A stretch of DNA of 64,000 nucleotides from Xestospongia bergquistia. Its lineage: Eukaryota > Porifera > Demospongiae > Haplosclerida > Petrosiidae. Each line of letters starts with the position of its first letter. The first letter of the stretch is position 1. Shown here piece by piece: positions 15,437-55,861 of the stretch. The position numbers and the translations under genes are program-made. The notes under the pieces were generated by a model. That model worked only from the letters and a program-made list of their open reading frames with translations, was not told where the DNA came from and made no database searches. The stretch covers positions 6,951,501 through 7,015,500 of the forward strand of contig OZ014413.1 of assembly GCA_963965975.1 (NCBI GenBank). Direction: 5' to 3'.

Positions 15437-18400
15437 ATGGTCTTACTTTCAACACTACTGGTGCTTTTTTTCCTGGTAAATTGTTTTGAGACATACCATG
15501 TTAATTTGTCATCAGATTTAGAGAAGTACCTGTGTGACACAACATGGTCCTCTCAACACCTTGTTTTATCATTAAACAGCTCTGTCAATTTTACTCTTTC
15601 TCGTGGTATCTTCTGTCAAGTGACAAGTAACCAAACTAGCAAGATTGATATACGTAGTGATTCTCTCACAGAATGGGCAACTATAACATGTGTTCATAAC
15701 GACATATTAGAGATTCTTCCACAGTCTAGAAGAGGTCTAGCTTTCTTCAACACTACAGTCACTTTAGAACGATTGATATTTAAGGATTGTGGTACTTATC
15801 TCACTACTATACAGGATTCTACAATTACTCAATACCTCAATAGTTCATCTTTGTATTACACTTCATCTCATGCTTCTGCATTAGTCTTTGTTCATTGTCA
15901 GGTCAATATAACTCAAGTTAACATCTACTACTCATATGGGTTTGCTATGATTGGTGTAAATCTGATTGATTCTACTATCAGTGAAGTTAATATATCTTAT
16001 TCAAGTCTTAGTACTAACCTATATCGTCATACTGAACACAAAAGAAGGACAATTGGTTGTGGTGCTATTCTTCATTTTTTTGATCATCAACTAATGATAT
16101 ATCCTACAAATATTACTGTCAACTATGCACGTTTTAAAAATAATTTTGATTTGCATAAAGCATATCCCTATATTTCTAAGTTCTCTAATAATTACTTGAA
16201 TATTGTTAATGCTGCTGGTCTGACTGTACTTTATACTCAACAAACATATTTTGTCAGTGTTATTATTAACAATACAGAATTAACATCTAATGTGGGAAGC
16301 TATAATTCACCAGGTGGTCTTCTTGTTCTTCATTACAACAGCTCCGTTAATACAAGCACGATTGTTAATAACTCTCTGTTTTCTAATAATTCTAATGGTC
16401 CTAAGTCATTTTTACATGGAGCAGCTCTTGCTTTATATTGGATTAAAGTAACAGATTTATCAATGACTCAACACCAATTTTTGTTAATTCAAAATACAAA
16501 GTTTTATGATCAAACAGGACATTGTCATAATTGTTTACCTACTGGTGCAGTATATGTTGCTGTAGCTGAACTAGATAAGATTGTTAATATTGAAATTCAT
16601 TTTAAAAATTGCACCTTTAAAAATAACTTAGTACGCCGGACAGGAGTGTGTCTTTTTATGTCTGTCTACAATAATGCTAAGTTTTCAAACATCTCTGTTG
16701 TTCTTGAAGACATAAATGCAACGAATAACTCTCAAAAGTTAAGATTTAAGCCTGTTTCAACTGCAGGAATCTTCTCATTTAGTAATGTAGCCTATGTGTC
16801 TATTACTGGAATGTCAACCTTCACTAACAACTATGGATCTGTGATTGATGCTTTCAACTCCAATGTTTATTTATCTAAATATGCCAATGTGACTTTTAGC
16901 AACAATGTTGGATCAAGAGGTGCTGCTATTAAATTGCTAGGTAATGGATATCTTTATTTTATTGGAGGAGCTGTAGTTAACTTTACCAATAATCGAGCAC
17001 AGGAATTTGGTGGAGCAATATATGCAAGTTCTGCTATAAAAAATAGCATATTACTAAAAGAACAATGTATCATAAAATTAATTAAAATCACAGAAGAAAA
17101 GAAAATTTCTTTTACAGAAAATGTAGCTATCTATGCTGGTAATTCAATATATGCTTATCCACTCTTTTCATGCAAATTCAAGCAAAAATTTTCTAATAAT
17201 AGAGCATTGCTAGAATTTTACAGAAGCCATTTTCATTTCATTGGAAACAAGAAAACGAATAAACTGCACACTATATCAACTTCAGCTTCAAAACTAACTT
17301 TATGTTATCCTAATGGTACACACAGAAATTCCATCAAATCAATTAACACCTATCCAGGTCAGAAGATCAAGATCTACATGGCATCTATTGATGCTTTAAG
17401 CAGAAATGTTTATTCAACTGTTGCAGTTAACATTGATAAAAAAAGCAACAGTTTAGGCTTACATAACAACCAAGAACAAATACTTAATGAAGGTAATAAT
17501 TGTACCTCATTTGAACTTAAATTATATAGCAAAGAAACTAACACCACTGAAGGAAAGTTAATATTTTCTTTACCAAGTTTCCCAGCTGCTTTAGTGGTCA
17601 ATGTCACAGTACAACATTGTCCTTTAGGTTTTGTTTGGCATAATAAAACACAACAATGTGTGTGCTCATCAGTGTTTTATAATGAAGACTTTTATTTGGT
17701 TTATGGTTATAAGGCTGATTGCGAAATTGATTACATGTCAATGGCAAGACCACGTTTATCTGCTAATACCTGGGCTGGTTATATGAATACATCCACACAT
17801 TTTGGTGTCTCAATACAATGTCCACTTGGCTATTGTAATGGTAATGGAGCTTTTTTTTGCAGTTCTTCAACTAACAATATGACAACGTCAATTAGCAAGA
17901 CTTGTTATAAAGAAACTCTTCAAACACTCTGTGTATATCATCGAGAAGGTCCATTGTGTGGTACTTGTGGTAGGGTTAAAGAAGGTCAAAAACTAAGTGT
18001 GGTATTTGGTTCTACAGAATGTAAACAATGTAGTAATTGGTGGTTGTTGACATTAGTCCTCTATGCAATAGCTGGTCCCCTCCTCATTTATCTGTTATAT
18101 GCTCTGAGACTTACGTTGACAACTGGTACACTAAATGGAATTATATTCTATGCTCATATGGCTAATTGTGGCATCATAGATCTTTTATCATTACAATTAT
18201 ATCAAGAGCCATACTCAAAGTTTTGTCTAATTTTTTTGTCTACATTGAATCTGAATCTTGGTTTTCCTCTATGTTTTTATGATGGGATGACAGAGTTATG
18301 GAAAGCTGGTCTCAGTTTACTATTTCCATTTTATTTGTTGACAATAGTTGTTGTCCTTATTATCCTCAGTCACTTTTATGTCAGGCTTTCTAACAGAATA

Positions 18401-19210
18401 GCTCACTCCTCAGTTCAAGTACTGGTTACTGTTGTACATCTCTCATTCTCAAAACTATTATTAGCAATTATTGATGTGTTTACCTCAGCAAGAATCTATT
18501 ATGATTCAGATAGCAGTTTCAAAGTTTGGTATTGGGATGGGTCAATACAATATGGTAGTGGATCACATCTCATTCTAATGATCATCACATTGGTGATTGT
18601 CATTTCTCTCTTGCTACCCTATGTCCTTATTCTCATCTTTGCTAGACCAATAAGACGCACTAGCATAAACAAATACATTCGACCTCTGCTAGAAGCTATC
18701 CATGCTCCATATAATGAAGGGAAGGAATACTTGTTTGTAGCTCGACTTGTTTTCTTGGTTGGAATATGTGTCATATATGCATCACTAAGAGCTAGGAATG
18801 TTCTTAATGTATATATTATAACATCTCCTTTTTTGGTTATTCTACTTCTCTTACATGTTCACTTCAAACCATTTAAGAACAAAGTGATATACTTCCTTGA
18901 CTGTTGGCTTATGTTTAACATCATTTTGATATACACAACAACTTGGTTTTTCTTTATAGAAGGTAAAAATCTAGCTATTGCAGTGTTTGTGTCTGTTATG
19001 GTCTGTATGGTGTTCCTTACATTCTTGGTAATATTGTTGTATCATATTCTACTGGTAACTGGCAAGATATATTCAATAACTACAATGTTTTATTTGATGC
19101 AGCACAAGTATAAGCAGAAAATGCTTTCATACAAACCATTACTGGCAGCTAATGACTCATTTTATAATTCATGTGAATACAGAGAACCTTTATTAAATTC
19201 TAGTAACTAA
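15437..19210 (+). CDS. Gene 1: beta-helix ectodomain, polytopic membrane protein (1257 aa)
   Basis: Intronless. A signal peptide (about residues 1-17) precedes an ectodomain to about 867 that is rich in Asn, Ser and Thr with very many N-glycosylation sequons. Recurrent short strands (VNFTNNRAQEFGGAIYASS-like) are typical of right-handed beta-helix or polymorphic-outer-membrane-protein-like repeats. A Cys-rich stalk follows (HCPLGFVW near 727, LCVYHREGPLCGTCG near 834). From about 868 to 1208 come roughly nine hydrophobic segments, with LNLGFPLCFYDGMTELW, SFSKLLLAIIDVF and FKPFKN between them, then a tail ending REPLLNSSN. The layout recalls polytopic membrane proteins of protists and invertebrates with Cys-rich ectodomains; receptor or adhesion function is inference. 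It is the intact member most similar to genes 2 and 3. Confidence 0.9.
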   Translation: MVLLSTLLVLFFLVNCFETYHVNLSSDLEKYLCDTTWSSQHLVLSLNSSVNFTLSRGIFCQVTSNQTSKIDIRSDSLTEWATITCVHNDILEILPQSRRGLAFFNTTVTLERLIFKDCGTYLTTIQDSTITQYLNSSSLYYTSSHASALVFVHCQVNITQVNIYYSYGFAMIGVNLIDSTISEVNISYSSLSTNLYRHTEHKRRTIGCGAILHFFDHQLMIYPTNITVNYARFKNNFDLHKAYPYISKFSNNYLNIVNAAGLTVLYTQQTYFVSVIINNTELTSNVGSYNSPGGLLVLHYNSSVNTSTIVNNSLFSNNSNGPKSFLHGAALALYWIKVTDLSMTQHQFLLIQNTKFYDQTGHCHNCLPTGAVYVAVAELDKIVNIEIHFKNCTFKNNLVRRTGVCLFMSVYNNAKFSNISVVLEDINATNNSQKLRFKPVSTAGIFSFSNVAYVSITGMSTFTNNYGSVIDAFNSNVYLSKYANVTFSNNVGSRGAAIKLLGNGYLYFIGGAVVNFTNNRAQEFGGAIYASSAIKNSILLKEQCIIKLIKITEEKKISFTENVAIYAGNSIYAYPLFSCKFKQKFSNNRALLEFYRSHFHFIGNKKTNKLHTISTSASKLTLCYPNGTHRNSIKSINTYPGQKIKIYMASIDALSRNVYSTVAVNIDKKSNSLGLHNNQEQILNEGNNCTSFELKLYSKETNTTEGKLIFSLPSFPAALVVNVTVQHCPLGFVWHNKTQQCVCSSVFYNEDFYLVYGYKADCEIDYMSMARPRLSANTWAGYMNTSTHFGVSIQCPLGYCNGNGAFFCSSSTNNMTTSISKTCYKETLQTLCVYHREGPLCGTCGRVKEGQKLSVVFGSTECKQCSNWWLLTLVLYAIAGPLLIYLLYALRLTLTTGTLNGIIFYAHMANCGIIDLLSLQLYQEPYSKFCLIFLSTLNLNLGFPLCFYDGMTELWKAGLSLLFPFYLLTIVVVLIILSHFYVRLSNRIAHSSVQVLVTVVHLSFSKLLLAIIDVFTSARIYYDSDSSFKVWYWDGSIQYGSGSHLILMIITLVIVISLLLPYVLILIFARPIRRTSINKYIRPLLEAIHAPYNEGKEYLFVARLVFLVGICVIYASLRARNVLNVYIITSPFLVILLLLHVHFKPFKNKVIYFLDCWLMFNIILIYTTTWFFFIEGKNLAIAVFVSVMVCMVFLTFLVILLYHILLVTGKIYSITTMFYLMQHKYKQKMLSYKPLLAANDSFYNSCEYREPLLNSSN

Positions 19211-19362
19211 TGGAAATGAACACATTATTATTTTATATTTGTCTTTTTAAACAATGTATATGTATCATTATGTAAGTCATTTTGATAAACTAAAGTTTTA
19301 TTGTAAATACACTGAAGTTTGTTTATTTTTAATACTTATTTGTTTGACATCAGGTTCTGTTA

Positions 19363-19588: not shown

Positions 19589-19925
19589 ATGACTTTTCTT
19601 TTATCTAACCTGGTACTATTATTTCTAGTTAGCTGTTATACATATAAAACACATCTTATTAACTGATCCTCAGATTTAGAGCAGTACCTTCGTACTGCAA
19701 CATGGTTTTCTCCATACCTTATGTTCCCAGTAGCAACTCTTTCAATTTTAGCCTTTCATGTAGAATCTTCTGTCAAGTGACAAGTCACCAGACCAATATA
19801 ATTGACATAATAACTCTTCCACAGAATCAACAACAATAACATGTGTTCATGATGACATGGCACAAACATTTCCACAGCAAAGATGAGTTCTAGTTTTCTT
19901 CAGCTCTCTAATGATTCTTAAAGAT
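19589..19925 (+). pseudogene. N-terminal relic of the large-protein family
   Basis: A head relic with its own leader (cagttcactcaaacactttaaaATG). It encodes a signal-peptide-like MTFLLSNLVLLFLVSCYTYK, then hits a stop after about 25 codons. Further sequence still aligns (tcagatttagag.agtacct, aatcttctgtcaagtgacaagt, acatgtgttcat.atgacat) but is riddled with indels, and alignment fades near 19925. It belongs to the same divergent subgroup as the relics at 49079 and 57240. Confidence 0.75.
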
Positions 19926-20157
19926 TGGTTATTAAAGATGATGTTAAATACAATAATTATGCAATAGGTACTAATAATGTTGTTCTCATGAAACTCACAA
20001 CATTATAAAGAATTTTCCTCGCACTAGATATTCATAAATAAATTAAAAGTGAAATATCAATGACACAAAGAAAAATACAAAGCAATATATTTTCAATTTC
20101 TATTCTAAAGAGTAGCTATAGAAGTTATCACTTACTTCCAAAGCCATAACCTTTTCA

Positions 20158-22632: not shown

Positions 22633-23605
22633 AATGAAAATATATGGCACTGTCAGAGGATATATCAGTAGCAGATTTTTTATGAAACTATTTAAAATAT
22701 CTATTGGCATAAAAATTAAGTATTGATCAAAAATTTTCGACTTAGTGTCAAAAAAATCCATATCCAAAGGTCCCTAAAACAATACTAAGTATGTATATAA
22801 AACTTTTGACATCCTCTACTTGTACAGTAGTAAATGGTCTTCCATATCTCTCTTTACCTAGATCAAGTCTGGATGGTGGAAACTCTCCATATGTAAAGGC
22901 ACTACGTCTCACTGGTTTTTTGTGAGTTAAAGCATACCTTATTACTCTCCAGATTAGTTTGATAGGATTGTTGTGTTGAGCTGGCTCAATAACCAAGTGA
23001 TGTTTAAAACAACAAAAAGACGAGACGGCAATGATGACGATAAATGTGCCATAGCCGAAAATACAAGAGAAAGTAAAATAAACAATGTTTTTATAAACAA
23101 TAGCTGTTATAATTGATGCCATTAACAAGATAATAGCTAGTAAAGTGTAATTCATATATAAAATCCAGTAAACAAAACTACTTAACTGTTGAGATGGTGC
23201 AAACTGAAGTTGATCAGTACCTAATTGGATTACATTGGCTTCAAATATACCATATCCAAAAAAGAATGGAAAACTCAGAACTAAACAAATACCAACTACA
23301 GCTACTCCGTTTAAATGTGCAAAGTATAAAATCACTAATGTAACCATACCGATAAAGAATCCAACAAATATTAATATTATTCCAACCAGTAAAACTTTAT
23401 ATCTCATCCATTTCTCACCTAACAAACCAAGAAGAGGATAAGAGAGATAGTGAAGCTCAGTTACAACAAAAATGACATATAAATAGTTATCAATGAAATT
23501 TGATGAAAGACCCCCTGATAATATTCTAGTAGTTATTAGCAACATGCTTGTTGTCATTACCACAAGAGCTCCTTTAGAACGAACACACACATTTTTGTAG
23601 TTCAT
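22633..23605 (-). pseudogene. Truncated POT transporter copy, inverted
   Basis: The 285-codon open part is highly similar to the first 285 residues of the POT gene at 24366, including RSAFTYGEF and RLDLGKERYGRPF. An extra T in a T-run near 22755 then shifts the frame into TGA. Nucleotide similarity continues past the stop for about 115 bases (to about 22633) and ends abruptly. The second half of a transporter is therefore missing, and the product, if made, would have only about six membrane segments. It is likely a pseudogene, though the first half is well preserved. Confidence 0.85.
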
Positions 23606-27090: not shown

Positions 27091-27094
27091 ATAT

Positions 27095-35461: not shown

Positions 35462-38400
35462 TTAATCTTGAAATGCTATCAGAGCTTTTCTCATTTCATC
35501 ATCTTCGTCATCTGATGGGATAACCACATGACCACAATCATGGCTTCTCTCTTTGCTGAACTTGCATTTACACTTTTCCCGACATTGACAAATTATAACA
35601 CCAAAGAAAAGAATAGCAACAACATAGTTATATGAGGCCATTATATAAGATAACCAGTAATACCTACCACCAAATACAATAGCTGATAGGAGTTGAATGA
35701 TCAACATTGCTATACAAAATGAGTCAATGTGGTTTATTCTTGAATTTCGAAATGGTTTGATAGATGTTTGAATGAAGCACAATATAATAACTGATGTTAG
35801 TTGCATAAACAACACTAAGTTAACATTGTATCCTCTGAAGACTGCCCACATCAAATAGACATATACAACAGTTATCATCCTCACTCCATACCAATAACCT
35901 TGTCCTTGTTTGTATGGACCCTGAAAAGCCTCTAGAAATGGACGCAAGTATTTATTAACACATCTCCATCTCATAAAATATCTACCCAAAGTAACAAATA
36001 TTATGTAAGGTATAATGTATAATAACAAACTTGTCACAGCTACAGCAAACAGAGCAATATGTTGAGAACTAAAGAAATAGTTAACATTACCATCACCATA
36101 CCACACTATTACTGTTCCATCTTGTGCTGTATGAACAGGAACATAAGCTATGATGTCTATACAAGTGATGAGGACTTTAGAGAAAGAGAGATGAATGAGA
36201 CTAGCTAAGACTTGAACAGAGTAACTTGCTGTTTTGTTAGAGATTTGAGTTGAGTGTTGACTAAATATGATAAATCCAATTACTAAAATACACAAGTACA
36301 CTGAATAAATAAATTGTATACCAGTTTTAACAGTTGGTGTCATTCCATTGTACAAACACATTGGAAAACCTAGATTAAGATTCATGAGGGATACGAAGAC
36401 TCTAGCAGCGTATATAAACCAATTGTTATTATCCAAAAAGTCAATAGTTGAAACAGAAGTGATATTCATAACTATTATAATACCAGCTAATGGTCCTTCT
36501 GATATAGTCAGTGGTAGTGTAAGCATTATTACTACCAGTAGCAGACCAGATAGAGCACATGCTACTATTGTAATTAACCATAGATGAGAACATGGTCTAC
36601 ATTCTGTACTACCAAATACAACACTTAGATTATGTTGACATTGTCCACAGAGTACACCCATCTTACTGGACTCACAAATAGAGAATGGGTCTGCCACATT
36701 GATTAGTAAAGTATCGGTCTTACAGTTACCAGGAGGACAAATAGAGGCAAAACCTAAATCACTCCTATTATCAGAGAATATATAACCCAACCATTGACCA
36801 GAAGAAATAGAAATAGTTGTTGTAGTGATGTTACATATTGCTGTAGGTGAAATAACTGTGATAAAACTATCACACACACACTCATCTCCATTCAACATGA
36901 ATCCCATTGGACAAGGATATACGTATATATTAGCTAACCAAGACGTTGGATATCCTGGTGTTGCAATATTTAATACCCCATGTTTGAATTCATTTAGTTT
37001 ACTGAGGACATTGTAATTGATTTGAGTACATTTATTACCAAAAAGAGGTACAAGTGTTTGTCCTTCTTTTAAATATAAAATATCTGGAAGCAACCTTTCT
37101 TGTTTAAAGTAATTACGATTTGTGAATGAAGCCATTGCAGGAGAGTAAACAATGTTACCAAAATCATCAATGGCACAAAGAGATGTGACTATTGTCTTAC
37201 CAGGATAAGTTTTAATGATATGATGTAATGTTGAGCAGTGTATGGAAATCGTTCCATTTTTTGCAGGATCAAGGTGACAAGAACATATTTTGACTGGTTG
37301 AGAAGAGATTTGTTTTAGGTCATTGTCAAGAGAGTTTGGTGGACCAAAATGTGTGATTGATCTCCAGTCAATATAGACTGTTTTAAAATCATTTTGTGAA
37401 TAGGGTAAAAAGCACTTGTAAAGAGAAGTGGCATAAATACTATTTCCTGCAAGTCCTGCTGTGTTCCCTTCAAATTTCAAAGTAATATTTAAATTGTGTA
37501 GATCTGTTTTATTACTATTGATTTGTATAGGACATCTACTGTGACCTGGTATAACTCCATTATCAACATATATAGCTCCACCATATAACAAAGCACTATT
37601 GTTACAGAATGTGGCAGTCAGTGGTTCTTGGAGAATAAGAAATGAGTTGTAAAGTTGAATGGCAGCTCCCATAGCTGCCTTGTTGTTTTTAAAGGATACA
37701 TTTCCTATTATATGTAGGTTGCTGTGATATACTGCAATTGTTGGTGAGTTGTTATCTTGAAAATTACTATTTCCCCTGATAAAGATGTTGTTCCAGTTTA
37801 TTAACGTCAAAGATGGAACTGTAGTATACGCTGTATAACCAAGATGACCTTTACGGCTGAAACATACTTCAGTATCTTCTAACACAATGGAAATGTTGCT
37901 TTTTTTGCAGATTCGAACTTGATCTGTCACGAATGCGTATAGACCAGAGCCAGATATATAAGCATAATGATATCTATATTTAACTCCTTTTAGGAATATA
38001 TTAATAGACTTTGCACAGCATAATTCAAAAATATTGAGATAGATATTTCCACCATACTTTACGTAAGAAAGTTCTGCAAGATATCCTCCTGTATGAGTCC
38101 CAATTGTTACATTATTGAATTCAATTGGTGTCCATTCATTAGTGCTGATTGAGTAACAGTTGTGACACAATATAGAAATAATAGTAATACATCCACCACC
38201 AATTTGTTTAGTTGATGGGATAACATATCCATCATATTCATAGACATCTTTTAGTGAAAATTGAGAATTCATCATGCCATTATAGAATAATACTAGTAAG
38301 AACCCTGTTATTGTTCCACCACTATCGGCAATGGTAGTATTCTTACTTTCAAATTTAGCTGCATAAGACTGATTATACAATACAGTTAACCCACCAGAAC

Positions 38401-39199
38401 CAACTATTATAGGAAGATTACATATCTTATGTCCTATCAAAGTCAATGGTGGTACATCTGGTATATAATTTATGTTAAAATAAAGGGTTGATTGTGACAT
38501 TACAATATTAACAGATTCCATATCAGGAGACGTTTGTTGAGTGTCTTTAAATATTACAGCTATGCCACAGCCGGCACACTCAAAAATACCAGAATCATTA
38601 CACTGACTACCACCAAATCCACCAAATCCATATTGAACTTGAACATGCTCCATTAATGATGAGCCAAGAGGATTAAGCATTAGTATAGCATATCCTACAT
38701 AATGTGCAATAGTCACACGATCTATCGTTATATTGTAACAATGATTAAATACAAGCAAAGACTTCTGTTTATATCCTAAATGTGGATGTGTATTATTGAA
38801 GGATGTCACAGCTGTTTTTGTTATAGTTGCTCCACATCCATTGAACTCCAAATTTTCTAAAGTAATGCTTGATATATTGACAAACCCAAAACCAGTAGTT
38901 GAAGAGGAATTTCCATTTTTTAGACATTTAATTAATGAATTCCTGTCAGTGAGTCCTGTTAATGTAATATTACTGACATTTCCAATTAAGCAAAAGGTCA
39001 TATTGTGAAGCACATAGTTCCTTTGTGTCATTTTAAAAATCAAGTTATTTTGTATTGATGCATTACCACTACATAACCAGTGCCACATTTGATCACTTGT
39101 ATTAATTGGAACAATATGTGAAGAAAGTGGTTTGGCAGTGGTAAATAGTAAAATAACAATTATAAGTACAAACAATACTGGAATATGCAATGATGTCAT
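35462..39199 (-). CDS. Gene 4: divergent beta-helix polytopic membrane protein (1245 aa)
   Basis: Same architecture as gene 1 but far diverged. It has a signal peptide (about 1-24), an Asn/Gly-rich ectodomain with beta-helix-like strands (AALMYGGAIYVD-type elements near 545), and a Cys-rich stalk (CPMGFMLNGDECVC near 761, GVLCGQCQHNLSVVFGSTEC near 846). From about 873 there is a polytopic domain with LNLGFPMCLYNGMTPTVK, SVQVLASLIHLSFSK, VNKYLRPFLEAFQGPY and KPFRNSRINHIDSF. Residues shared with genes 1-3 are concentrated there. The tail is Cys- and acid-rich (QCREKCKCKF, SDDEDDEMRK). A splice acceptor (ctccttacag) lies 13 bases upstream of the ATG, so a 5' leader intron is likely. Confidence 0.88.
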   Translation of the reverse strand: MTSLHIPVLFVLIIVILLFTTAKPLSSHIVPINTSDQMWHWLCSGNASIQNNLIFKMTQRNYVLHNMTFCLIGNVSNITLTGLTDRNSLIKCLKNGNSSSTTGFGFVNISSITLENLEFNGCGATITKTAVTSFNNTHPHLGYKQKSLLVFNHCYNITIDRVTIAHYVGYAILMLNPLGSSLMEHVQVQYGFGGFGGSQCNDSGIFECAGCGIAVIFKDTQQTSPDMESVNIVMSQSTLYFNINYIPDVPPLTLIGHKICNLPIIVGSGGLTVLYNQSYAAKFESKNTTIADSGGTITGFLLVLFYNGMMNSQFSLKDVYEYDGYVIPSTKQIGGGCITIISILCHNCYSISTNEWTPIEFNNVTIGTHTGGYLAELSYVKYGGNIYLNIFELCCAKSINIFLKGVKYRYHYAYISGSGLYAFVTDQVRICKKSNISIVLEDTEVCFSRKGHLGYTAYTTVPSLTLINWNNIFIRGNSNFQDNNSPTIAVYHSNLHIIGNVSFKNNKAAMGAAIQLYNSFLILQEPLTATFCNNSALLYGGAIYVDNGVIPGHSRCPIQINSNKTDLHNLNITLKFEGNTAGLAGNSIYATSLYKCFLPYSQNDFKTVYIDWRSITHFGPPNSLDNDLKQISSQPVKICSCHLDPAKNGTISIHCSTLHHIIKTYPGKTIVTSLCAIDDFGNIVYSPAMASFTNRNYFKQERLLPDILYLKEGQTLVPLFGNKCTQINYNVLSKLNEFKHGVLNIATPGYPTSWLANIYVYPCPMGFMLNGDECVCDSFITVISPTAICNITTTTISISSGQWLGYIFSDNRSDLGFASICPPGNCKTDTLLINVADPFSICESSKMGVLCGQCQHNLSVVFGSTECRPCSHLWLITIVACALSGLLLVVIMLTLPLTISEGPLAGIIIVMNITSVSTIDFLDNNNWFIYAARVFVSLMNLNLGFPMCLYNGMTPTVKTGIQFIYSVYLCILVIGFIIFSQHSTQISNKTASYSVQVLASLIHLSFSKVLITCIDIIAYVPVHTAQDGTVIVWYGDGNVNYFFSSQHIALFAVAVTSLLLYIIPYIIFVTLGRYFMRWRCVNKYLRPFLEAFQGPYKQGQGYWYGVRMITVVYVYLMWAVFRGYNVNLVLFMQLTSVIILCFIQTSIKPFRNSRINHIDSFCIAMLIIQLLSAIVFGGRYYWLSYIMASYNYVVAILFFGVIICQCREKCKCKFSKERSHDCGHVVIPSDDEDDEMRKALIAFQD

Positions 39200-42474: not shown

Positions 42475-42870
42475 ATGGGAGTGTAGAGTATGGAGGACAC
42501 TCCCATTTTCTTCTAATTATATTGACTCTGACAGTAGTTCTTGGTCTACTGTTGCCATATGTTCTCCTATTTTTCTTTACTAAAAACTTAATCCACTAGC
42601 ATCTACCAACAAATACTTCCAACCTCTTCTAGTAGCTATCCATGCTACTTTTGAATAAAGGTAAATAATATTATTTTACATTGCGTCTTCTCTTTCTATT
42701 TGCTTTGTATGACATATATGCCAAATATAGAGCTACTGATGTTTATGCTCTTTTTGTCACAACAAGTTTAAAATTTGTAATGTTCCTTTCCTTTCAAACA
42801 TAAATTAAAGAATAATTTAAAAGTAAATTAATTAGCATTTTTAATAGTGGTTTTATAATGAACATAATAT
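42475..42870 (+). pseudogene. Membrane-domain relic of the large-protein family
   Basis: Degraded sequence aligned to gene 1 at about 18530-18900: gagtatgg.ggacactcc, ctactgttgccatatgttctcc, cttccaacctcttctagtagctatccatgct, then a gacatatatgccaaatatagagct stretch. Stops and frameshifts are frequent. Confidence 0.7.
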
Positions 42871-43399
42871 TTATATACTTGACTTCTTGGCAACAGTCTG
42901 GCTTAACAAATAAAAGGTTCTGGTATTGACCTTGTCATAACCAAATGGTCAAATAGTTATATATAAGAAGCTACTTCTAGTCAAAATATGTATGTAGCAT
43001 ACAAGGAGTCATATGACATTATGTTGTATATCTAATTAACGCTATAATGTATGCTTAATATGACATAATCACATGTGATTGAAATATCACGCAAGACTTA
43101 CTTATTTGCATTACAACTATAGAATAAACTAGTCCTATACTTCACAGAATATGTTAGATCTATTTATTAGTATGCTATATTTTGTATGCTATGTCATTTT
43201 TTAGGATCCAGTAGCCCATGTGATGGCATAGTTGGTTCATTTGTGGATTGTTGTGCACTGAACTAAGCAATATTCCCAAAGTAACTATATATGGAAAAAT
43301 ATAGATTCCATTCTTTTGGATGTATTAACTCCAAGTAAAGATGTTACAAGGTTAGTCTCCTTACAATATAATGTTAAAACATTACTTTATATAAGCAAA

Positions 43400-43759: not shown

Positions 43760-44240
43760 CTTGTGAATTACTATATTTTTACGTCATTGTGTAAGTCTAT
43801 TGTGTGGTAGTTGTAGTAAGCTTAAAATAGGCCAACACTTAGTATGGTATTTGGTTATACAGAATGAAAAATGTACTAATTTGCGGTTGCAGACACCAGT
43901 TCTCTATGCAGTAGCTGCTTCTTTCTTCATTTATATGTTATATGCTCTCAGACTCACATTATACACTCAATAGAATTATATTTTAAGTTAAGACTACTAA
44001 TTATGAAATCATAGATCTATTATTATTAAATCTTGTCAAAGGCCATGTTCAATGTTTTGTCTTATTCTTATGCCTATATTGAATCTGAATCTAACTTTTT
44101 CTCTATTTTCAACAATAGAATGACAAAGTTTGAAAAACTGATCTCAGTTTAGTATTTTCCCTTATCTCTTGACAATAGTTCTTATATTCAGTATCTTCAG
44201 TCATTGAATAGAAAGCTTTCTAAAACAATTGTTCATTCAT
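43760..44240 (+). pseudogene. Stalk and membrane-domain relic upstream of gene 2
   Basis: Contains decayed versions of the LCGSCGMLKEGQ stalk motif (ttgtgtggtagttgtagtaagc), the first membrane segment (ctctatgcagtagctgct) and SHSVHSS-region sequence, broken by many indels. A very similar relic precedes gene 3 at 51230-51870. Confidence 0.8.
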
Positions 44241-44410: not shown

Positions 44411-46903
44411 ATGCTCTTACTTTCAACACTACTGGTCCTTTTTTCCCTGGTAAATCGTTTTGAAACATATCATGTTAACTCGTCATCAGATTTGGAGAAG
44501 TTCCTGTGTGACAAAACATGGTCATCTCAACACTTTGTTTTATCATTAAACAGCTCTGTGAATTTTACTCTTTCTCGTGGTATCTTCTGTCAAGTGTCTA
44601 GTAACCAAACTAGTAAAATTAGCATATACAGTGATTCTCTCACAGAAATGGCAACTATAACATGTGTTCATAATGACACATCAGATATTCCTCCACAATC
44701 TAGAAGAGGTCTGGCTTTCTTTAACACTACAGTGACTCTTGAACAATTGATATTTAAGGATTGTGGTACTTATCTCACTACTATACAAGATTCTACTATG
44801 ACTGACTACCTCAATAGTTCATCTCTGTATTACACTTCATCTCATGCTGCTGTGTTAGTCTTTGTTCATTGCCATGTCAATATAACTCAACTTAATATCT
44901 ATTACTCATATGGGTTTGCTATGATTGGTATAAATTTATATAACTCTAGTATCCGTGAAGTTAATGTATCTAATTCAACTCTTAGTAATGTCCTATATCA
45001 TCATACTGAACACAAAAGAAGGACAATTGGTTGTGGTGCTCTTCTACATTTTTTTGATCATCAACTAATGATGTATCCTACAAATGTTACTGTCAACTAT
45101 GCACGATTTACAAATAACTCTGATTTGCATAAAGCATATAGCTATATCACTGAGTTCTCTAATAATTCTTTAAATATTGTTAATGCTGCTGGTCTGACTG
45201 TACTTTATACTCAAAAAACATATTTTGCTAGTGTTACTATTAACAATACAGAATTTACATCTACTGTGGGAAGTTATAATTCACCAGGTGGTCTGCTTGT
45301 TCTTCATTACAACAGTTCTCTTAATACAAGCACAATTGTTAATAACTCTCTGTTTTCTGATAATGCTAATGGTCCTAAGTCATTTTTACATGGAGCAGCT
45401 CTTGCTTTATATTGGATTAAAGTAACAGATTTATCAATGACTAAACCTCAAGTATTGTTAATTCAAAATACAAAGTTTTATAATCACACAGGACATTGTC
45501 ATAATTGTTTACCTACTGGTGCTATGTATGTTGCTGTAGCTGAACTAAGAAATACTGTTAAAATAGATATTCATATAAAAAACTGTAGCTTTCAAAATAA
45601 TTTAGTACAGCAGACTGGAGCTTGTCTTTTTATGTCAGTCTCTGATAGTACTAAGAAGTTTGCAAACATCGCCGTTGTTCTCGAAGACATATATGCAACG
45701 AATAACTCTCAAAAGTTAAGATTTAAGCCTGTTTCAACTGCAGGAATCTTCTCATTTAGTAGCGTAGCAAACGTGTCTATTACTAGAACGTCAACCTTCA
45801 CTAACAACTATGGATCTGTGATTGATGCTCTCAATTCCAATGTTTATCTGTCTAAATATGCCACCAATGTGACTTTTAGCAACAATGTTGGATCCAGTGG
45901 TGCTGCTATTAGACTACTAGGTAATGGATATCTTTATTTTAGTGGAGGAGCTGTAGTTAACTTTACTAATAATCAAGCTCAGGAATTTGGTGGAGCAATA
46001 TATGCAAGTTCTGGTAAAAGAAATAGTTTACTACTAAAAGAACAATGTATCATACAATTAATTGATATCACAAAACAAAATAATATTTTCTTTACAGAAA
46101 ATGTAGCTATCTATGCTGGTAATTCAATATATGCTAGTCCACTCTTTTCATGCAAATTAAAGCAAAAACTTTCTAATAATACAGCATTGCTAGAGTTTTA
46201 TAGTAATCACTTTCATTTTATTGAAAACAAGAAAGTGAATAAACTGCACACTATATCAACTTCAGCTTCAAAACTAACTTTATGTTATCCTAATGGTACA
46301 CACAGAAATTTCACCAAATCAATTAATACCTATCCAGGTCAGAAGATCATGATTGACATGGCATCTATTGATTCTCTAAACAGAAGCGTCTACTCAATTG
46401 TTGCAATCACCATTGCTACAAAAAGAAACATTTTAGAACTACATAAAGACCATGAACAAATACTTTATGAAGGTAATAATTGTACCTCATTTAACATTAA
46501 AATATATAGCAAAGACTATAATACCACAGAGGGAATGTTAGTATTTTCTCTACCTAGTTTCCCAGCTGCTCTAGTTGTCAATGTTACAGTACAACATTGT
46601 CCTTTAGGTTTTGTTTGGCATAATAAAACACAAAAATGTGTGTGCTCATCAGCTTTTTATAATGAAGACTTCTATTTGGCTTATGGTTATAAGACTGATT
46701 GTGACATTGATTACCTGTCAATGACAAGACCTAAAATATTTGCTAATACCTGGGCTGGTTATGTGAACACATCCAGACAGTTTGGAGTCTCAATTCAATG
46801 TCCACTTGGTTATTGTAATTATGATGGGTCCTTTTTTTGCAGTTCTTCAGCTAACAATATGAAGATTTCAAATGACAAGAATTGTAATAAAAAAACTCTC
46901 TAA
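44411..46903 (+). CDS. Gene 2, first part: ectodomain ending at an in-frame stop (830 aa)
   Basis: Close paralog of genes 1 and 3 over signal peptide, beta-helix ectodomain and most of the Cys-rich stalk (HCPLGFVWHNKTQKCVCSS, QCPLGYCNYDGSFFCSSS). It ends at TAA (46901-46903), where gene 1 has CAA and gene 3 has CGA. The frame continues without any other defect into the membrane half (46904-48190). If translated, this part would be a secreted glycoprotein without membrane anchor. Either a young nonsense mutation, an allele-specific change or an assembly error explains it; readthrough is less likely. Confidence 0.8.
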   Translation: MLLLSTLLVLFSLVNRFETYHVNSSSDLEKFLCDKTWSSQHFVLSLNSSVNFTLSRGIFCQVSSNQTSKISIYSDSLTEMATITCVHNDTSDIPPQSRRGLAFFNTTVTLEQLIFKDCGTYLTTIQDSTMTDYLNSSSLYYTSSHAAVLVFVHCHVNITQLNIYYSYGFAMIGINLYNSSIREVNVSNSTLSNVLYHHTEHKRRTIGCGALLHFFDHQLMMYPTNVTVNYARFTNNSDLHKAYSYITEFSNNSLNIVNAAGLTVLYTQKTYFASVTINNTEFTSTVGSYNSPGGLLVLHYNSSLNTSTIVNNSLFSDNANGPKSFLHGAALALYWIKVTDLSMTKPQVLLIQNTKFYNHTGHCHNCLPTGAMYVAVAELRNTVKIDIHIKNCSFQNNLVQQTGACLFMSVSDSTKKFANIAVVLEDIYATNNSQKLRFKPVSTAGIFSFSSVANVSITRTSTFTNNYGSVIDALNSNVYLSKYATNVTFSNNVGSSGAAIRLLGNGYLYFSGGAVVNFTNNQAQEFGGAIYASSGKRNSLLLKEQCIIQLIDITKQNNIFFTENVAIYAGNSIYASPLFSCKLKQKLSNNTALLEFYSNHFHFIENKKVNKLHTISTSASKLTLCYPNGTHRNFTKSINTYPGQKIMIDMASIDSLNRSVYSIVAITIATKRNILELHKDHEQILYEGNNCTSFNIKIYSKDYNTTEGMLVFSLPSFPAALVVNVTVQHCPLGFVWHNKTQKCVCSSAFYNEDFYLAYGYKTDCDIDYLSMTRPKIFANTWAGYVNTSRQFGVSIQCPLGYCNYDGSFFCSSSANNMKISNDKNCNKKTL

Positions 46904-48190
46904 TCACTGTGCTTACATCATCGTGAAGGTCCATTGTGTGGTAGTTGTGGTATGCTTAAAGAAGGCCAAAAATTAAGTGTAGTATTTGGTTCTAAAGAAT
47001 GTAAAGAATGTAGTAACTGGTGGTTGTGGACAATAGTTCTCTATGCAGTAGTCGGTCCCCTTCTCATTTACCTGTTATATGCTCTGAGACTTACGTTGAC
47101 AACTGGTACACTAAATGGAATTATATTCTATGCTCATATGGCTAATTGTGGCATCATAGATCTTTTATCATTACAACTATATCAAGAGCCATACTCAAAG
47201 TTTTGTCTAATTTTTTTGTCTACATTGAATCTGAATCTTGGTTTTCCTCTATGTTTTTATGATGGGATGACAGAGTTATGGAAAGCTGGTCTCAGTTTAC
47301 TATTTCCACTATATTTACTGTCAATAGTTGTTGTCCTCATTATCCTCAGTCGTTTTTCTTTGAAGCTTGCTAGCATAATAGCGCACTCCTCAGTTCAGGT
47401 TCTGGTTACTGTTATTCATCTCTCATTCTCAAAACTATTGCTAGCAATTATTAATGTGTTTACTTCAGCAAGAATCTATTATGATTCAGATAGTAGTTTC
47501 AAAGTTTGGTATTGGGATGGGTCAATAGAATATGGTAGTTTATCACATATTATTCTAATGATCATCACATTGGTAATTGTCATTTCTCTCTTGCTACCCT
47601 ATGTCCTTATTCTCATCTTTGCTAGATCAATAAGACGCACAAGTATAAACAAATACATTCGACCTGTACTAGAAGCTATCCATGCTCCATATAAGGAAGG
47701 GAAGGAGTACTGGTTTGTAGCTCAACTTGTTTTCTTGGTTGGGACATATGTCGTGTACACATCACTAAGAGGTAGGAATGTTCTTAAAATATATATTATA
47801 ATAACCCCCTTTTTGGTTCTTTTGCTTCTCTTACATGTTTACTTCAAACCATATAAGAACAAAGTTATCAACTTGCTTGACCGTTGGCTTATACTTAACA
47901 TTATTTTGATATACACCACAACTTGGTTTTTTCTTATAGAATTTAAAAATCAAGTTATTTCAGTGTTTGTTTCTGTTATGGTCTTTATTGTGTTCCTTAC
48001 ATTCTTGGTAATATTGTTGTATCATATTCTACTGGTAACTGGCAAGACGTCTTCAATAACAAAAATATTTCATTTGATGCAGCACAAGTATAAGCAGAAA
48101 ATACTTTCATGCAAACCATTACTGGCAGCTAATGACTCATTTTACAATTCATGTGAATACAGAGAACCTTTATTAAGTTCTAGTAAATAA
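46904..48190 (+). pseudogene. Gene 2, second part: stalk end and membrane domain behind the stop
   Basis: Continues gene 2 in the same reading frame (SLCLHHREGPLCGSCGMLKE onward), through about nine hydrophobic segments to the family tail (CEYREPLLSSSK). It has no stop or frameshift of its own. An internal ATG at 46934 could start a 418-residue frame, but it has no signal peptide and is probably not used. 47072-47308 is nearly identical to gene 1, while flanking parts match gene 3. Confidence 0.8.
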
Positions 48191-49078: not shown

Positions 49079-50280
49079 ATGACAATACTTTGAGTCATTC
49101 TAGTATTTTTACTTTTAGTTAGCTTTTGTAAATTTAAAACACACAATTTTAACTTACCCTCAGATTTATAGCAGTATCTCTGTAACACAACATGTTTTTC
49201 TCCATACCTTGGTTCTCATTTTCTAATGAACAGCTTCGTCAATTTTATCCTTTCATGTGTAATCTTTAGTCAAGTGATAAGTAACCAAACTTATCAAAAT
49301 GACATGCACATTAACAGTTCCACACATTAAGCAACAATATCATGTTTGTGATGACATAGAGCACACAATTCCACAGCCAAAATGAGGTCCAGTTTTCTTC
49401 AACTCTCAATTGACTCTTAAAAATTTTGTGATTAAGGGTTGTGTTACAATCACAGACAACCACAATACTTCATAATTGTATACATTACACTTCCTTTTAT
49501 TCTGCTACCTTAGCCTTTGTTCATTATTTGGTCAAATATAATTCAAGTTAACATCTAATGCTCATTTGATTTGTCTTTGATTTGTGTAAGTTTAGATGAC
49601 TCAAGTATCAGCAAGGTTATTGAACCTAATTCCTCTTTGAGCTCTAAAGTACTTTTAAAAACAGCTAGATTACTGTGTTGGAATTATTATTTATTATCTT
49701 GATATGACATCAATCAGTTTGATGTTCTCACAACTGTCTCATTTAACTTGATTAGTTTGAACTATAAAACATAGATTTTGTTTAGAATAGTTATTCTTAT
49801 ATAATCAACATATATTATCATCAACAACTTTTATTGTATAATGCTGATAATGTTATTGTCAATGTTGCTGGATTGACCGTGCTTTATCATCAAAGAACAT
49901 ATAGAACATTTGTACTCATTAGCAATACAGAATTCTTGCACAACTTTGTTGGGTTTATACACCAGGAGGTTTGGTGATATTATAATACAAATCTCCTAAC
50001 TTCACATATGCTGAAGTAGAGAACACTGAGTTTGAAGGCAACATTAATTTTAATCATTTGCATTGTCATAAATCAGCACTAAGTATCTGTTGGACAGCCA
50101 GTTTTACCATCTAATTCTCACAGTTACTCTCTTTATGTTCAAAATAATGTTTTCAAAAAAAAAGCATTAAGGATATTAGATCTGGATCAATGCATTTTAC
50201 TTTCGTTATTCCAAACAAAATTACAATCACTATTCGCAAGTCATGAAATGAAAATAAACCATTGAATGAATGGACAAATC
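49079..50280 (+). pseudogene. Ectodomain relic of the large-protein family
   Basis: Starts with leader and ATG (49079) but stops after four codons. Collinear similarity to the ectodomain continues: tcagatttatagcagtatctctgtaacacaac, gtcaagtgataagtaaccaaact, gttaacatct, and near 49860 gttgctggattgaccgtgctttatcat. It fades near 50280. It is closest to the split relic at 57240/60372. Confidence 0.8.
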
Positions 50281-51229: not shown

Positions 51230-51870
51230 TTATTGTAAACTTGTAAACTACTATGTTTACATCATTGTGTAAGTCTGTTGTGTGATAGTTGTAGTAAGCT
51301 TAAAATAGGCCAAAACTTAGTATGGTATTTGGTTATTCAGAATGAAAAATGTACTAATTTGTGGTTGCAGACACCAGTTCTCTATGCAGTAGCTGCTCCC
51401 TTCTTCATTTATATGTTATATGCTCTCAGACTCACATTATACACTCAATAGAATTATATTTTAAGTTCAGTCTACTAATTATCGAATCATAGATCTATTA
51501 TCTTTAAATCTTATAATAGCCACGTTCAATGTTTTGTTTTTTCTAAATCTGAGTTTTTCTCTATGTTCAACAATGGAATGACAAAGTTTAGAAAATTAAT
51601 GTCAGTTTACTATTTTCATTTATCTCTTGATGATAGTTGTTATCTTCAGTATCCTCAGTCATTGAATGTAAAGCTTTCAAAAACAATTGTTCATTCCTCA
51701 GTTATGTGTGGTTTACTATTGTACATTTCTCATTCTCAAAACTATTGCTAGCAATTTGGGATGTGTTTTCCTCAGAAAGAATCTTTTATGATTCAGATAC
51801 TAGTGAAAATGTTTGGTGTTGGACTGGCTAAAATATGGTGGTGAATCATTTTTCATACATTGGTAAATGT
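51230..51870 (+). pseudogene. Stalk and membrane-domain relic upstream of gene 3
   Basis: Near twin of the relic upstream of gene 2. Two overlapping short frames (51563-51831) still encode pieces such as FSFSKLLLAIWDVFSSERIF, matching LSFSKLLLAIIDVFTSARIY of gene 1. Similarity ends near 51870 at acattggtaaatg, the shared end point. Confidence 0.85.
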
Positions 51871-52084: not shown

Positions 52085-55000
52085 ATGTTCTTACTTTCAG
52101 CACTACTGGTGCTTTTTTCCCTTGTAAATTGTTTTGAAACATATAATGTTAACTCATCATCAGATTTAGAGAAGTACCTGTGTGACACAACATGGTCCTC
52201 TCAACAACTTGTTTTATCATTAAACAGCTCTGTCAATTTTACCTTCTCGCGTGGTATCTTCTGTCAAGTGACAAGTAACAAGACTAGTAAGATTGATATA
52301 CGCAGTGATTCTCTCACAGAATGGGCAACTATAGCATGTGTTCATAATGACACATCAGACATTTCTCAACAATCTAGAAGAGGTCTGGCTTTCTTTAACA
52401 CTACAGTGACTCTAGAACGATTGATATTTAAGGATTGTGGTACATATCTCACTACTATACAAGATTCTACCATTACTCAATACCTCAATAGTTCATCTCT
52501 GTATTACACTTCATCTCATGCTGCTGCCTTAGTCTTTGTTCATTGTCAGGTCAATATAACTAAAGTTAACATCTATTACTCATATGGGTTTGCTATGATT
52601 GGTGTAAATCTGATTGATTCTACTATCAGTGAAATAAATATAGCTTATTCAAGTCTTAGTACTAACCTATATCGTCATACTGAACACAAAAGAAGGACAC
52701 TTGGTTGTGGTGCTCTTCTACATTTTTTTGATCATCAACTAATGATGTATCCTACAAATGTTAATGTCAACTATGCGCTTTTTACAAATAACTATGATTT
52801 GCATAAAGCATATAACTATATCACTGAGTTCTCTAATGATGACTTGAATATTGTTAATGCTGCTGGTCTGACTGTACTTTATATTCAAAAAGCATATTTT
52901 GCTAGTGTTACTATTGACAATACAGAATTTACATCTAATGTGGGAAGTTCTAGTTCCCCAGGTGGTCTGCTTGTTCTTCATTACAACAGTTCTCTTAATA
53001 CAAGCACAATTGTTAATAACTCTCTGTTTTCTGATAATGCTAATGGTCCTAAGTCATTATTACATGGAGCGGCTCTTGCTTTATATTGGATTAAAGGAAC
53101 AGATTTATCAAAGACTCAACACCAAATACTGTTAATTCAAAACACAAAGTTTTATAATCACACAGGACGTGGTCATAATTGTTTACCTACTGGTGCAGTA
53201 TATGTTGTTGTAGCTGAGCTCGAAAAGACTGTTAATATAGATATTCATTTTATTAATTGCAGCTTTCAAAATAACTTAGTACAGCAGACTGGAGCTTGTA
53301 TTTTTATGTCTGTCTATGACAATGCTAAGATGTTTGCAAACATCTCCGTTGTTCTTGAAGACATATATGCAACGAATAACTCTCAAAGGTTAAGATTTAA
53401 GCCTTTTTCAACTGCTGGAATCTTCACTTTTAGTAATGTAGCAAATGTATCTATTACTGGAATGTCAACCTTCATTAACAACTATGGATCTGTGATTGAT
53501 GCTTTCAATTCCAATGCTTATCTGTCTAAATATGCCAATGTGACTTTTAGCAATAATGTTGGATCAAGAGGTGCTGCTATTAGACTACAAGGTAATGGAT
53601 ATCTTTATTTTATTGGAGGAACTGTAGTTAACTTTACTAATAATCAAGCTCAGGAATTTGGTGGAGCAATATATGCAAGTTCTGGTGTAAGAAATAGTTT
53701 ATTAGTAAAAGAACAATGTATCATAAAGGTAATTGATATCACAAAAGAAAAGAATATTTCTTTTACAGAAAATGTAGCTATCAATTCTGGTGATTCAATA
53801 TATGCCTATCCACTCTTTTCATGCAGATTAAAGCAAAAAATTCCTAACAATACAGCATTGCTAGAATTTTATAGGAGCCTCTTTCATTTCATTGAAAACA
53901 AGAAAGTGAATAAACTTCACACCATATCAACTTCAGCTTCAAAACTAACTTTGTGTTATCCTAATGATACACATAGAAATTCCATCAAATCATTTAATAC
54001 CTATCCAGGTCAGAAGATCAAGATCTACATGGCATCTATTGATGCTGTAAATAGAAGCGTTTACTCAACCGTTGCAATCACCATTGCTACAAAAAGAAAC
54101 ACTTTAGAACTACATAAAAACCAAGTACAAATACTTTATGAAGGTAATAATTGTACCTCATTTAAGCTTAAAATATATAGCAAAGACTCTAATACCACAG
54201 AAGGAAAGTTAGTATTTTCTCTACCTAGTTTCCCAGCTGCTCTAGTTGTCAATGTTACAGTACAACATTGTCCTTTAGGTTTTGTTTTGCATAATAAAAC
54301 ACAAAAATGTGTGTGCTCATCAGCTTTTTATAATTTAGACTTCTATTTGGTTTATGGTTACAGGGCTGATTGTGACATTGATTACCTGTCAATGGCAAGA
54401 CCTGTATTATCTGCTAATACCTGGGCTGGTTATGTGAACATGTCCAGACATTTTGGTGTATCAATTCTATGTCCACTTGGTTATTGTAATTATGATGGGT
54501 CCTTTATTTGTAGTTCTTCATCTAACAATATGAAGATTTCAAATAACAAGACTTGTTACAAAAAAACTCTCCGATCACTATGTTTGCATCATCGTGAAGG
54601 TCCATTGTGTGGTAGTTGTGGTATGCTTAAAGAAGGCCAAAAACTAAGTGTAGTATTTGGTTCTACAGCATGCAAAGAATGTAGTAACTGGTGGTTGTGG
54701 ACAATAGTTCTCTATGCAGTTGTTGGCCCCCTTCTCATTTACCTGTTATATGCTCTCAGACTTACATTAACAACTGGTACACTAAATGGTATTATATTCT
54801 ATGCCCAGATGGCTAATTGTGGCATCATAGATCTATTATCATTAAAACTTTATCAAGACGCATACTCAAAGTTTTGTGTTATTTTTTTGTCAACATTGAA
54901 TCTGAAGCTTGGTTTTCCTCTATGTTTTTATAATGGAATGACAGAGTTATGGAAAGCTGGTTTCAGTTTACTATTTCCACTATATTTACTGTCAATAGTT

Positions 55001-55861
55001 GTTGTCCTCATTATCCTCAGTCATTTTTCTTTGAAGTTAGCTAGCAAAATAGCGCACTCCTCAATTCAGGTTCTTGTTACTGTTATTCATCTCTCATTCT
55101 CAAAACTATTGCTAGCAATTATTGATGTGTTTACTTCAGCAAATATCTATTATGATTCAGATAGTAGTTTCAAAGTTTGGTATTGGGATGGGTCAGTACA
55201 ATATGGTAGTGGATCACATATTATTCTAATAATCATCACATTGGTGATTGTCATTTCTCTCTTGCTACCCTATGTCCTTATTCTCATCTTTGCTAGATCA
55301 ATAAGACGCACAAAGATAAACAAATACATCCGACCTCTACTGGAAGCTATCCATGCTCCATATAAGGAAGGGAAAGAGTACTGGTTTGTAGCTCAACTTG
55401 TTTTCTTGGTTGGGACATATGTCGTGTACACATCACTAAGAGGTAGGAATGTTCTTAAAATATATATTATAATAACCCCCTTTTTGGTTCTTTTGCTTCT
55501 CTTACATGTTTACTTCAAACCATATAAGAACAAACTTATCAACTTTCTTGACTGTTGGCTTATACTTAACATTATTTTGATATACACAACAACTTGGTTT
55601 TTTCTTATAGAATATAAAAATCAAGTTATTTCAGTGTTTGTGTCTGTTATGGTCTTTATTGTGTTCCTTACATTCTTGGTAATATTGTTGTATCATATTC
55701 TACTGGTAACTGGCAAGACGTCTTCAATAACAAAAATTTTTCATTTGATGCAGCACAAATATAAGCAGAAAATACTTTCACGCAAACCATTACTGGCAGC
55801 TAATGACTCATTTTACAATTCATGTGAATACAGAGAACCTTTATTAAGTTGTAATAACTAA
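52085..55861 (+). CDS. Gene 3: beta-helix ectodomain, polytopic membrane protein (1258 aa)
   Basis: Intact, intronless and collinear with gene 1. It has a signal peptide (MFLLSALLVLFSLVNC), a sequon-rich ectodomain with beta-helix-like strands (NFTNNQAQEFGGAIYASSG), and a Cys-rich stalk (HCPLGFVLHNKTQKCVCSS, LCLHHREGPLCGSCGMLKE). About nine hydrophobic segments follow, then the same tail (CEYREPLLSCNN). The end of the membrane domain and the 3' sequence are nearly identical to gene 2, while parts of the ectodomain (IDSTISEINIAYSSLSTNLY) are closer to gene 1. Its 3' region is interrupted by a likely solo LTR. Confidence 0.9.
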   Translation: MFLLSALLVLFSLVNCFETYNVNSSSDLEKYLCDTTWSSQQLVLSLNSSVNFTFSRGIFCQVTSNKTSKIDIRSDSLTEWATIACVHNDTSDISQQSRRGLAFFNTTVTLERLIFKDCGTYLTTIQDSTITQYLNSSSLYYTSSHAAALVFVHCQVNITKVNIYYSYGFAMIGVNLIDSTISEINIAYSSLSTNLYRHTEHKRRTLGCGALLHFFDHQLMMYPTNVNVNYALFTNNYDLHKAYNYITEFSNDDLNIVNAAGLTVLYIQKAYFASVTIDNTEFTSNVGSSSSPGGLLVLHYNSSLNTSTIVNNSLFSDNANGPKSLLHGAALALYWIKGTDLSKTQHQILLIQNTKFYNHTGRGHNCLPTGAVYVVVAELEKTVNIDIHFINCSFQNNLVQQTGACIFMSVYDNAKMFANISVVLEDIYATNNSQRLRFKPFSTAGIFTFSNVANVSITGMSTFINNYGSVIDAFNSNAYLSKYANVTFSNNVGSRGAAIRLQGNGYLYFIGGTVVNFTNNQAQEFGGAIYASSGVRNSLLVKEQCIIKVIDITKEKNISFTENVAINSGDSIYAYPLFSCRLKQKIPNNTALLEFYRSLFHFIENKKVNKLHTISTSASKLTLCYPNDTHRNSIKSFNTYPGQKIKIYMASIDAVNRSVYSTVAITIATKRNTLELHKNQVQILYEGNNCTSFKLKIYSKDSNTTEGKLVFSLPSFPAALVVNVTVQHCPLGFVLHNKTQKCVCSSAFYNLDFYLVYGYRADCDIDYLSMARPVLSANTWAGYVNMSRHFGVSILCPLGYCNYDGSFICSSSSNNMKISNNKTCYKKTLRSLCLHHREGPLCGSCGMLKEGQKLSVVFGSTACKECSNWWLWTIVLYAVVGPLLIYLLYALRLTLTTGTLNGIIFYAQMANCGIIDLLSLKLYQDAYSKFCVIFLSTLNLKLGFPLCFYNGMTELWKAGFSLLFPLYLLSIVVVLIILSHFSLKLASKIAHSSIQVLVTVIHLSFSKLLLAIIDVFTSANIYYDSDSSFKVWYWDGSVQYGSGSHIILIIITLVIVISLLLPYVLILIFARSIRRTKINKYIRPLLEAIHAPYKEGKEYWFVAQLVFLVGTYVVYTSLRGRNVLKIYIIITPFLVLLLLLHVYFKPYKNKLINFLDCWLILNIILIYTTTWFFLIEYKNQVISVFVSVMVFIVFLTFLVILLYHILLVTGKTSSITKIFHLMQHKYKQKILSRKPLLAANDSFYNSCEYREPLLSCNN

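Follow-up and report, generated by a model that had tools for sequence, protein, structure and literature searches.

We analyzed a stretch of 64,000 nucleotides from the sponge Xestospongia bergquistia (hereafter the window; C3:6951501-7015500, in a genome of 146.46 Mb in 21 contigs) that carries genes of a family of very large proteins combining a predicted beta-helix ectodomain, a Cys-rich stalk, and a polytopic membrane half. An earlier sequence-only reading had described four full-length members here. With the open frames read under the standard code, genes 1, 3, and 4 are intact (Table 1), and gene 2 is broken by an in-frame TAA that separates its ectodomain piece (830 codons) from its membrane half; intact paralogs exist. 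Within a single frame, all three extend from a hydrophobic leader to a hydrophilic tail, which makes "intronless" a fair description. Genes 1 and 3 share 90% identity over residues 1-188. The architecture proposed in the same reading (a hydrophobic N-terminus, a sequon-rich ectodomain, a Cys-rich stalk, and a polytopic C-terminal half) was borne out in genes 1, 3, and 4, and the dileucine-type tail and the gene 2 stop are additions to it.

Decayed copies lie among these genes. Using nine family proteins as tblastn queries (cut-off 1e-6), 16 matched pieces were obtained and grouped into nine fragments, which hold either N-terminal pieces or stalk and membrane-half pieces; counted by eye, the decayed copies number six to seven. 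About ten relics had been reported between positions 15437 and 55861; nine fragments were found, and four of them lie outside that span (Table 1). Judged from their sequences, the genes and fragments of the window form a birth-and-death array, which is not due to chance because paralogs elsewhere in the genome match the membrane half of gene 1 at up to 90% and that of gene 4 at up to 93%.

Table 1. Features of the window (positions count from its first nucleotide).
Feature	Position	Strand	Remarks
Gene 1	15437..19210	+	Intact single open frame, 1257 aa
Gene 1, signal peptide and predicted beta-helix ectodomain	15437..17617	+	Residues 1-727; structure matches span approximately 99-605
Gene 1, Cys-rich stalk	17618..18037	+	Residues 728-867; CPxGF, CxC, GxLCGxC, and CxxC motifs
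Gene 1, polytopic membrane domain	18038..19081	+	Residues 868-1215; approximately nine predicted spans and one short helix, probably non-crossing
Gene 1, tail motif EYREPLL	19175..19195	+	Residues 1247-1253; dileucine type
Gene 4	35462..39199	-	Intact, 1245 aa; divergent subfamily
Gene 4, tail motif EMRKALI	35477..35497	-	Residues 1235-1241
Gene 2	44411..48190	+	Broken; in-frame TAA at 46901-46903
Gene 3	52085..55861	+	Intact, 1258 aa
Gene 3, tail motif EYREPLL	55826..55846	+	Dileucine type
Relic, membrane-half fragments	12915..13446	+	tblastn; outside 15437-55861
Relic, N-terminal fragment	13674..13886	+	tblastn; 83% identity to gene 1 residues 11-81; outside 15437-55861
Relic, membrane-half fragments	14720..15237	+	tblastn; outside 15437-55861
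Relic, N-terminal fragments	19643..19937	+	tblastn
Relic, membrane-half fragment	42477..42890	+	tblastn
Relic, stalk and membrane-half fragment	43770..44204	+	tblastn; just upstream of gene 2
Relic, N-terminal fragment	49133..49645	+	tblastn
Relic, stalk and membrane-half fragments	51260..51828	+	tblastn; just upstream of gene 3
Relic, stalk/first-span fragment	61880..62053	-	tblastn; outside 15437-55861
PTR2-type frame	20568-22289	+	Kinship by eye
PTR2-type frame	24366-26009	+	Kinship by eye
PTR2-type frame	22748-23605	-	Kinship by eye
PTR2-type frame	31349-31834	-	Piece and kinship by eye
Open frame	57454-59094	-	In or beside the stretch of approximately 48% G+C
Open frame	59346-60116	-	In or beside the stretch of approximately 48% G+C

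The window holds only a small part of the family. A genome-wide count, which the sequence-only reading had proposed, gave at least 287 loci on 14 contigs, with starts at least 1 kb apart; 211 of them have an open frame of 1,100 codons or more (median 1,272) and no stop within the match. The count comes from six membrane-half searches, in each of which the best 101-114 candidates were scored and rows judged to be repeats were left out; it is a lower bound, the first-pass candidates being 557-779, not all of which are necessarily members. The main array, at C3 8.49-9.72 Mb, holds at least 103 loci. At C3:9.17-9.22 Mb, matches with identical scores are paired approximately 22.4 kb apart (for example, C3:9190766 and C3:9213139), one pair sharing internal stops; such pairs may reflect recent (segmental) duplication or a duplicated assembly. 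A distant clade has the same layout in the one member read, the protein L075 (C4:1566000-1570000), which shares 19% identity with gene 1 in the stalk and membrane half, and further distant-clade matches occur on C4, C8, C10, and C1. Pattern-seeded scans of bacterial/archaeal and viral contigs, which can miss distant relatives, confirmed no relatives there.

The ectodomain of gene 1 contains 24 sequons in 727 residues (14.3 +/- 3.3 in shuffled sequences) and that of gene 4 contains 20 (10.8 +/- 2.9 in shuffles). The predicted structure of the ectodomain is a beta-helix (mean predicted local distance difference test score, pLDDT, 46), as had been proposed from the sequence; this low-confidence model supports a right-handed parallel beta-helix, that is, one solenoid of parallel strands. 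A Pmp-type repeat is present in gene 1 at residues 513-534, under the cut-off of Pfam. The corresponding family PF02415 scored 22.5 bits in gene 4 (cut-off 20.6), the only one of five window pieces scanned to exceed the cut-off, and exceeded it in none of six full-length paralogs, and TIGR01376 was over its own cut-off in five of seven members. Structural match rows to PfbA, pertactin, and the Sf6 tailspike have 8 to 11% identity, and a viral structure library gave no match at E <= 0.001. Two profile matches were rejected: DUF1137, which scored 20.8 bits on the L070 ectodomain and 11.3 on that of gene 4, both short of its cut-off of 25, and the NCBIfam model nanowire_3heme on L069 (15.9 bits against 40). 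PHROGs matches to six families, with one member each, were also rejected.

The stalk has cysteines that are invariant over 26 aligned members and also over a set of 15 rows that includes the distant paralog L075. The stalk with its GxLCGxC motif weakly resembles PF24633 (DUF7630), which gave the best Pfam row among the 26 members (E 0.0063, 4 members). By hmmscan, it scored 15.6 bits in L069 and L038 and 21.5 in L075, all short of the cut-off of 27. In a genome search, three places exceeded the cut-off (open frames of 704, 1240, and 989 codons), one of which is the L075 place, with 27.7 bits against the 21.5 of hmmscan. No paper on PF24633/DUF7630 was found by name. Searching A5 against PDB sequences gave EEA1-type matches on the stalk cysteines at chance level (E 0.9-1.4).

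About nine membrane segments had been proposed for the C-terminal half, and family-averaged hydropathy and loop charge support this number. Mean hydropathy has ten peaks once touching ones are merged, which amounts to nine crossings provided that, of the two short helices lying between peaks 1 and 4, one is non-crossing. The loops between peaks 4 and 5 (+2.1), 6 and 7 (+4.8), and 8 and 9 (+2.6) and the tail (+2.7) are positively charged; the others have -0.9 (2-3), -1.5 (5-6), and +0.4 (9-10) or are near neutral (1-2, +0.5; 3-4, +0.2). Under the positive-inside rule, these charges support a predicted topology with the N-terminus out and the C-terminus in. A polar and strongly conserved span lies at approximately residues 986-1017 in the gene 1-like set, around the fifth span. 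Before the sixth span, a predicted outer loop carries the near-invariant motif VW[YF]xDGxhxY (gene 1 residues 1030-1039) family-wide. Pfam scans of the 26 members returned nine families at E <= 1, none convincing for the membrane half. PDB sequences gave no match for gene 1 (E <= 1), A1 (E <= 10), or L075 (E <= 10), and only chance-level matches for A4 (E 2.2-2.3). The sequence-only reading had been unable to name a standard class for such proteins, and the Pfam, NCBIfam, and PDB sequence searches turned up no known family of fixed function.

The tail, predicted to be cytoplasmic, ends in a dileucine-type motif. The pattern [E/D/Q]xR[E/Q/K][P/A][L/V/I][L/I] was found at the tail end of 25 of the 26 aligned members (shuffles: mean 0.008, maximum 1). 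The 55 sequences reaching the C-terminus have 37 distinct tails, and 33 of these carry the pattern. Three of the four tails lacking it have near variants, with one or two letters changed or the motif shifted by one, and that of L049 differs. Because members share ancestry, these occurrences are not independent, and what matters is how far the motif stands out from the remaining tail: mean pairwise identity is 73% in the five REPLL columns, 22% elsewhere in the tail, and 46% in the spans. This supports the motif as a conserved sequence, which may well be an uptake signal. In a random-tail screen (PMC2882754), an acid at -5, its place in the present motif, was nearly equal to one at -4, and a P at -1 helped.

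We propose, at a little short of an even chance, that these genes encode ligand-capturing surface glycoproteins that are subsequently internalized, a large family that multiplies by tandem duplication. The N-glycosylated right-handed beta-helix would stand off the membrane, N-terminus out, and would bind a surface ligand, most plausibly a glycan borne by other cells or by particles of food or microbes. A disulfide-rich stalk would connect it to the membrane core of approximately nine spans, and the cytoplasmic dileucine-type signal would recruit clathrin adaptors, so that receptor and cargo would be taken up or sorted to endo-lysosomes. The best supported parts are the architecture, the topology, the beta-helix class, the family size, purifying selection, and the conserved tail motif; glycosylation, disulfides, the class of ligand, surface location, uptake, and any signaling or channel activity of the membrane core are what we infer. 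Several points weigh against this proposal. Foldseek returned no match at E <= 0.001 for the beta-helix model, whose mean pLDDT is itself low, and Pmp repeat pattern matches are few (1 to 7 per protein). Loop 7-8 is mildly positive (+1.5) and fits the predicted topology less well. A capture receptor would not require as many as nine spans, and the conserved polar span hints, by its sequence, at transport, a channel, or signaling. L075, the sole distant-clade protein read, is without the tail motif. The acid of the motif is at -5, not at -4 as in the canonical [DE]xxxL[LI], the textbook form of the dileucine signal (PMC5297682).

The roles suggested from the sequence alone, in self/non-self recognition, adhesion, or microbe sensing, are inferences here too. 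A different reading is that of a repertoire for self/non-self or microbe recognition, with variable ectodomains, a constant signaling core, and few members expressed per cell. The number of loci, more than a third of them counted in one array, and the birth-and-death decay within the window speak for it, as does the distribution of divergence. Between genes 1 and 4, identity is 23% and 28% in the ectodomain halves, 35% in the stalk, and 31% in the spans, so that the direction of the earlier claim that the membrane half is better conserved than the ectodomain holds with a small difference. Over a set of 43 members, from which short loci, twins, and repeated entries for one gene were excluded, 871 of 903 pairs are more distant in the ectodomain (residues 400-727) than in the spans. 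The two distances correlate closely (r 0.90, Mantel p 0.001), which weighs against a repertoire in that it gives no sign of wholesale ectodomain swapping between cores; domain swapping is thus not supported. We also compared the proportions of nonsynonymous and synonymous differences (pN/pS). Pooled over six full-length gene 1-like genes (15 pairs), pN/pS is lowest in the stalk and spans (0.45), somewhat higher in the two halves of the ectodomain (0.51 and 0.53), and highest in the tail (0.77), with values over 1 for single short tails in single pairs. For gene 1-like C-terminal loci (12 of 15, two twins and the broken gene 2 being left out), it is 0.58 in the C-terminal half of the ectodomain, 0.52 in the stalk, 0.37 in the spans, and 0.75 in the tail, the lowest 40-codon windows (0.16) starting at 981 and 1001 (residues 981-1040). 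N-terminal loci (seven of eight, L004 left out and L005 being the ectodomain piece of gene 2) gave 0.58 and 0.60 in the ectodomain halves, with a peak of 0.96 at residues 181-220. Thirteen gene 4-like loci gave 0.48 in the C-terminal ectodomain and 0.36 in the spans, with approximate region limits taken from gene 1. No interior 40-codon window has a pN/pS over 1; the windows that do (start 681 in the N-terminal set, starts 1 and 321 in the gene 4-like set) lie at locus ends or where little is aligned. At this resolution, there is thus no direct sign of positive selection, which also counts against a repertoire, and the ratios indicate overall purifying selection on the copies, with a tighter constraint on the membrane part than on the outer part. 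The earlier picture of a variable outside and a constant inside therefore keeps its direction but with a moderate contrast (0.58 versus 0.37; 0.51-0.53 versus 0.45). We consider the repertoire unlikely.

A channel or signaling role of the membrane core is the main alternative to capture and uptake. The proteins could be ion channels or mechanosensors with a TRP-like logic, the spans forming a pore and the beta-helix serving as a tether, a possibility that we regard as distinctly doubtful. The approximately nine spans, the conserved polar span, and the conserved outer-loop motif would suit such a protein, and against it stand the lack of any Pfam channel family, those of TRP-like and polycystin channels included, at E <= 1 in the 26 members and of any PDB sequence match beyond chance. 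Because the structure model of the membrane half, which consists of helices, is too poor for a fold (pLDDT 42), the missing channel match says little. The predicted orientation would also fit a G protein-coupled receptor (GPCR) or similar signaling receptor with a giant ectodomain, and many GPCRs are among the Foldseek rows for the membrane model. These rows all have E >= 0.09 and, on such a model, mean little; the spans number nine, not seven, and none of the 26 members has a 7tm Pfam match at E <= 1, making this reading improbable. A membrane-anchored polysaccharide lyase or hydrolase is hardly credible: many beta-helices are such enzymes, and polysaccharide lyases, epimerases, and galactosidases make up many of the structural matches of the ectodomain model, but when ten members are compared, the ectodomain positions kept in all of them hold Gly, Cys, Asn, Phe, or Leu and never an acid, a base, or His (one Asp is kept in at least 90%), and the Pfam scans returned no lyase family.

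For the capture receptor that we favor, the closest working parallel is provided by the trichomonad Pmp proteins (PMC6701047), surface proteins of a eukaryote that carry Pmp-type repeats as well as tail motifs for endocytosis and that in some cases raise adhesion. They are described there as often single-span, in contrast to the approximately nine spans, Cys-rich stalk, and dileucine-type tail of variant spacing found here, and the sponge family is therefore not a typical trichomonad Pmp. With the chlamydial Pmp (POMP) autotransporters (PF02415/TIGR01376), it has in common the GGA[ILV] and FxxN repeats within a beta-helix (PMC11166332). The sponge proteins have few repeats, and hydrophobic helical segments stand where Pmp has its C-terminal beta-barrel; as judged from these features the family is not a chlamydial Pmp, and the Pfam scans of window pieces and paralogs gave no match to a Pmp middle domain or autotransporter. 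PF24633 matches the GxLCGxC stalk weakly. Beta-helix adhesins and phage tailspikes such as PfbA, pertactin, and the Sf6 tailspike resemble the modeled ectodomain in fold class, and a shared fold shows no shared function; they are not known to have a comparable set of spans. PANTHER PTHR11319, which we take to be a label for such proteins in protists, occurs in no paper of the literature searched. A few terms gave nothing on such proteins in the part of a GPCR paper covered (PMC4302439). No description of the architecture was found in the open-licence PMC literature, judged by title and start of abstract among the matches listed, and we therefore describe the family as an expanded beta-helix surface receptor family whose membrane core matches no Pfam model here. 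Proteins of this general layout, unnamed, may occur in other eukaryotes.

Organisms without adaptive immunity often keep recognition diversity in large, duplicating families of surface receptors, and many such receptors are still unknown. It is conceivable, if rather unlikely, that the family is a very large receptor superfamily, so far undescribed, whose members would form a germline-diversified repertoire to distinguish self, microbes, or food, joining a variable beta-helix capture rod to a new nine-span signaling or conducting core with adaptor-driven uptake. The loci pair a conserved membrane core, for which the Pfam scan of 26 members found no model, with a putative trafficking signal open to test; as single-exon genes they are easy to clone, so that ligand capture, uptake, and signaling can each be tested, and a profile of the membrane core would allow the family to be counted across eukaryotes.

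Between the receptor genes, the window also contains a POT-type transporter (PTR2, PF00854, 45.6 bits) with apparent full or partial copies, all in single frames; one copy, of 547 aa, taken by itself matched no Pfam family. The window has a G+C content of approximately 31%, except for one stretch near 58-60 kb at 48%, and the two open frames in or beside it resemble, by eye, a putative DIRS-type retroelement. Scans of the window for RNA families and tRNAs found none. Just upstream of gene 4, a 145-base tandem repeat of 1.9 copies (39432-39715) forms a possible promoter-side repeat.

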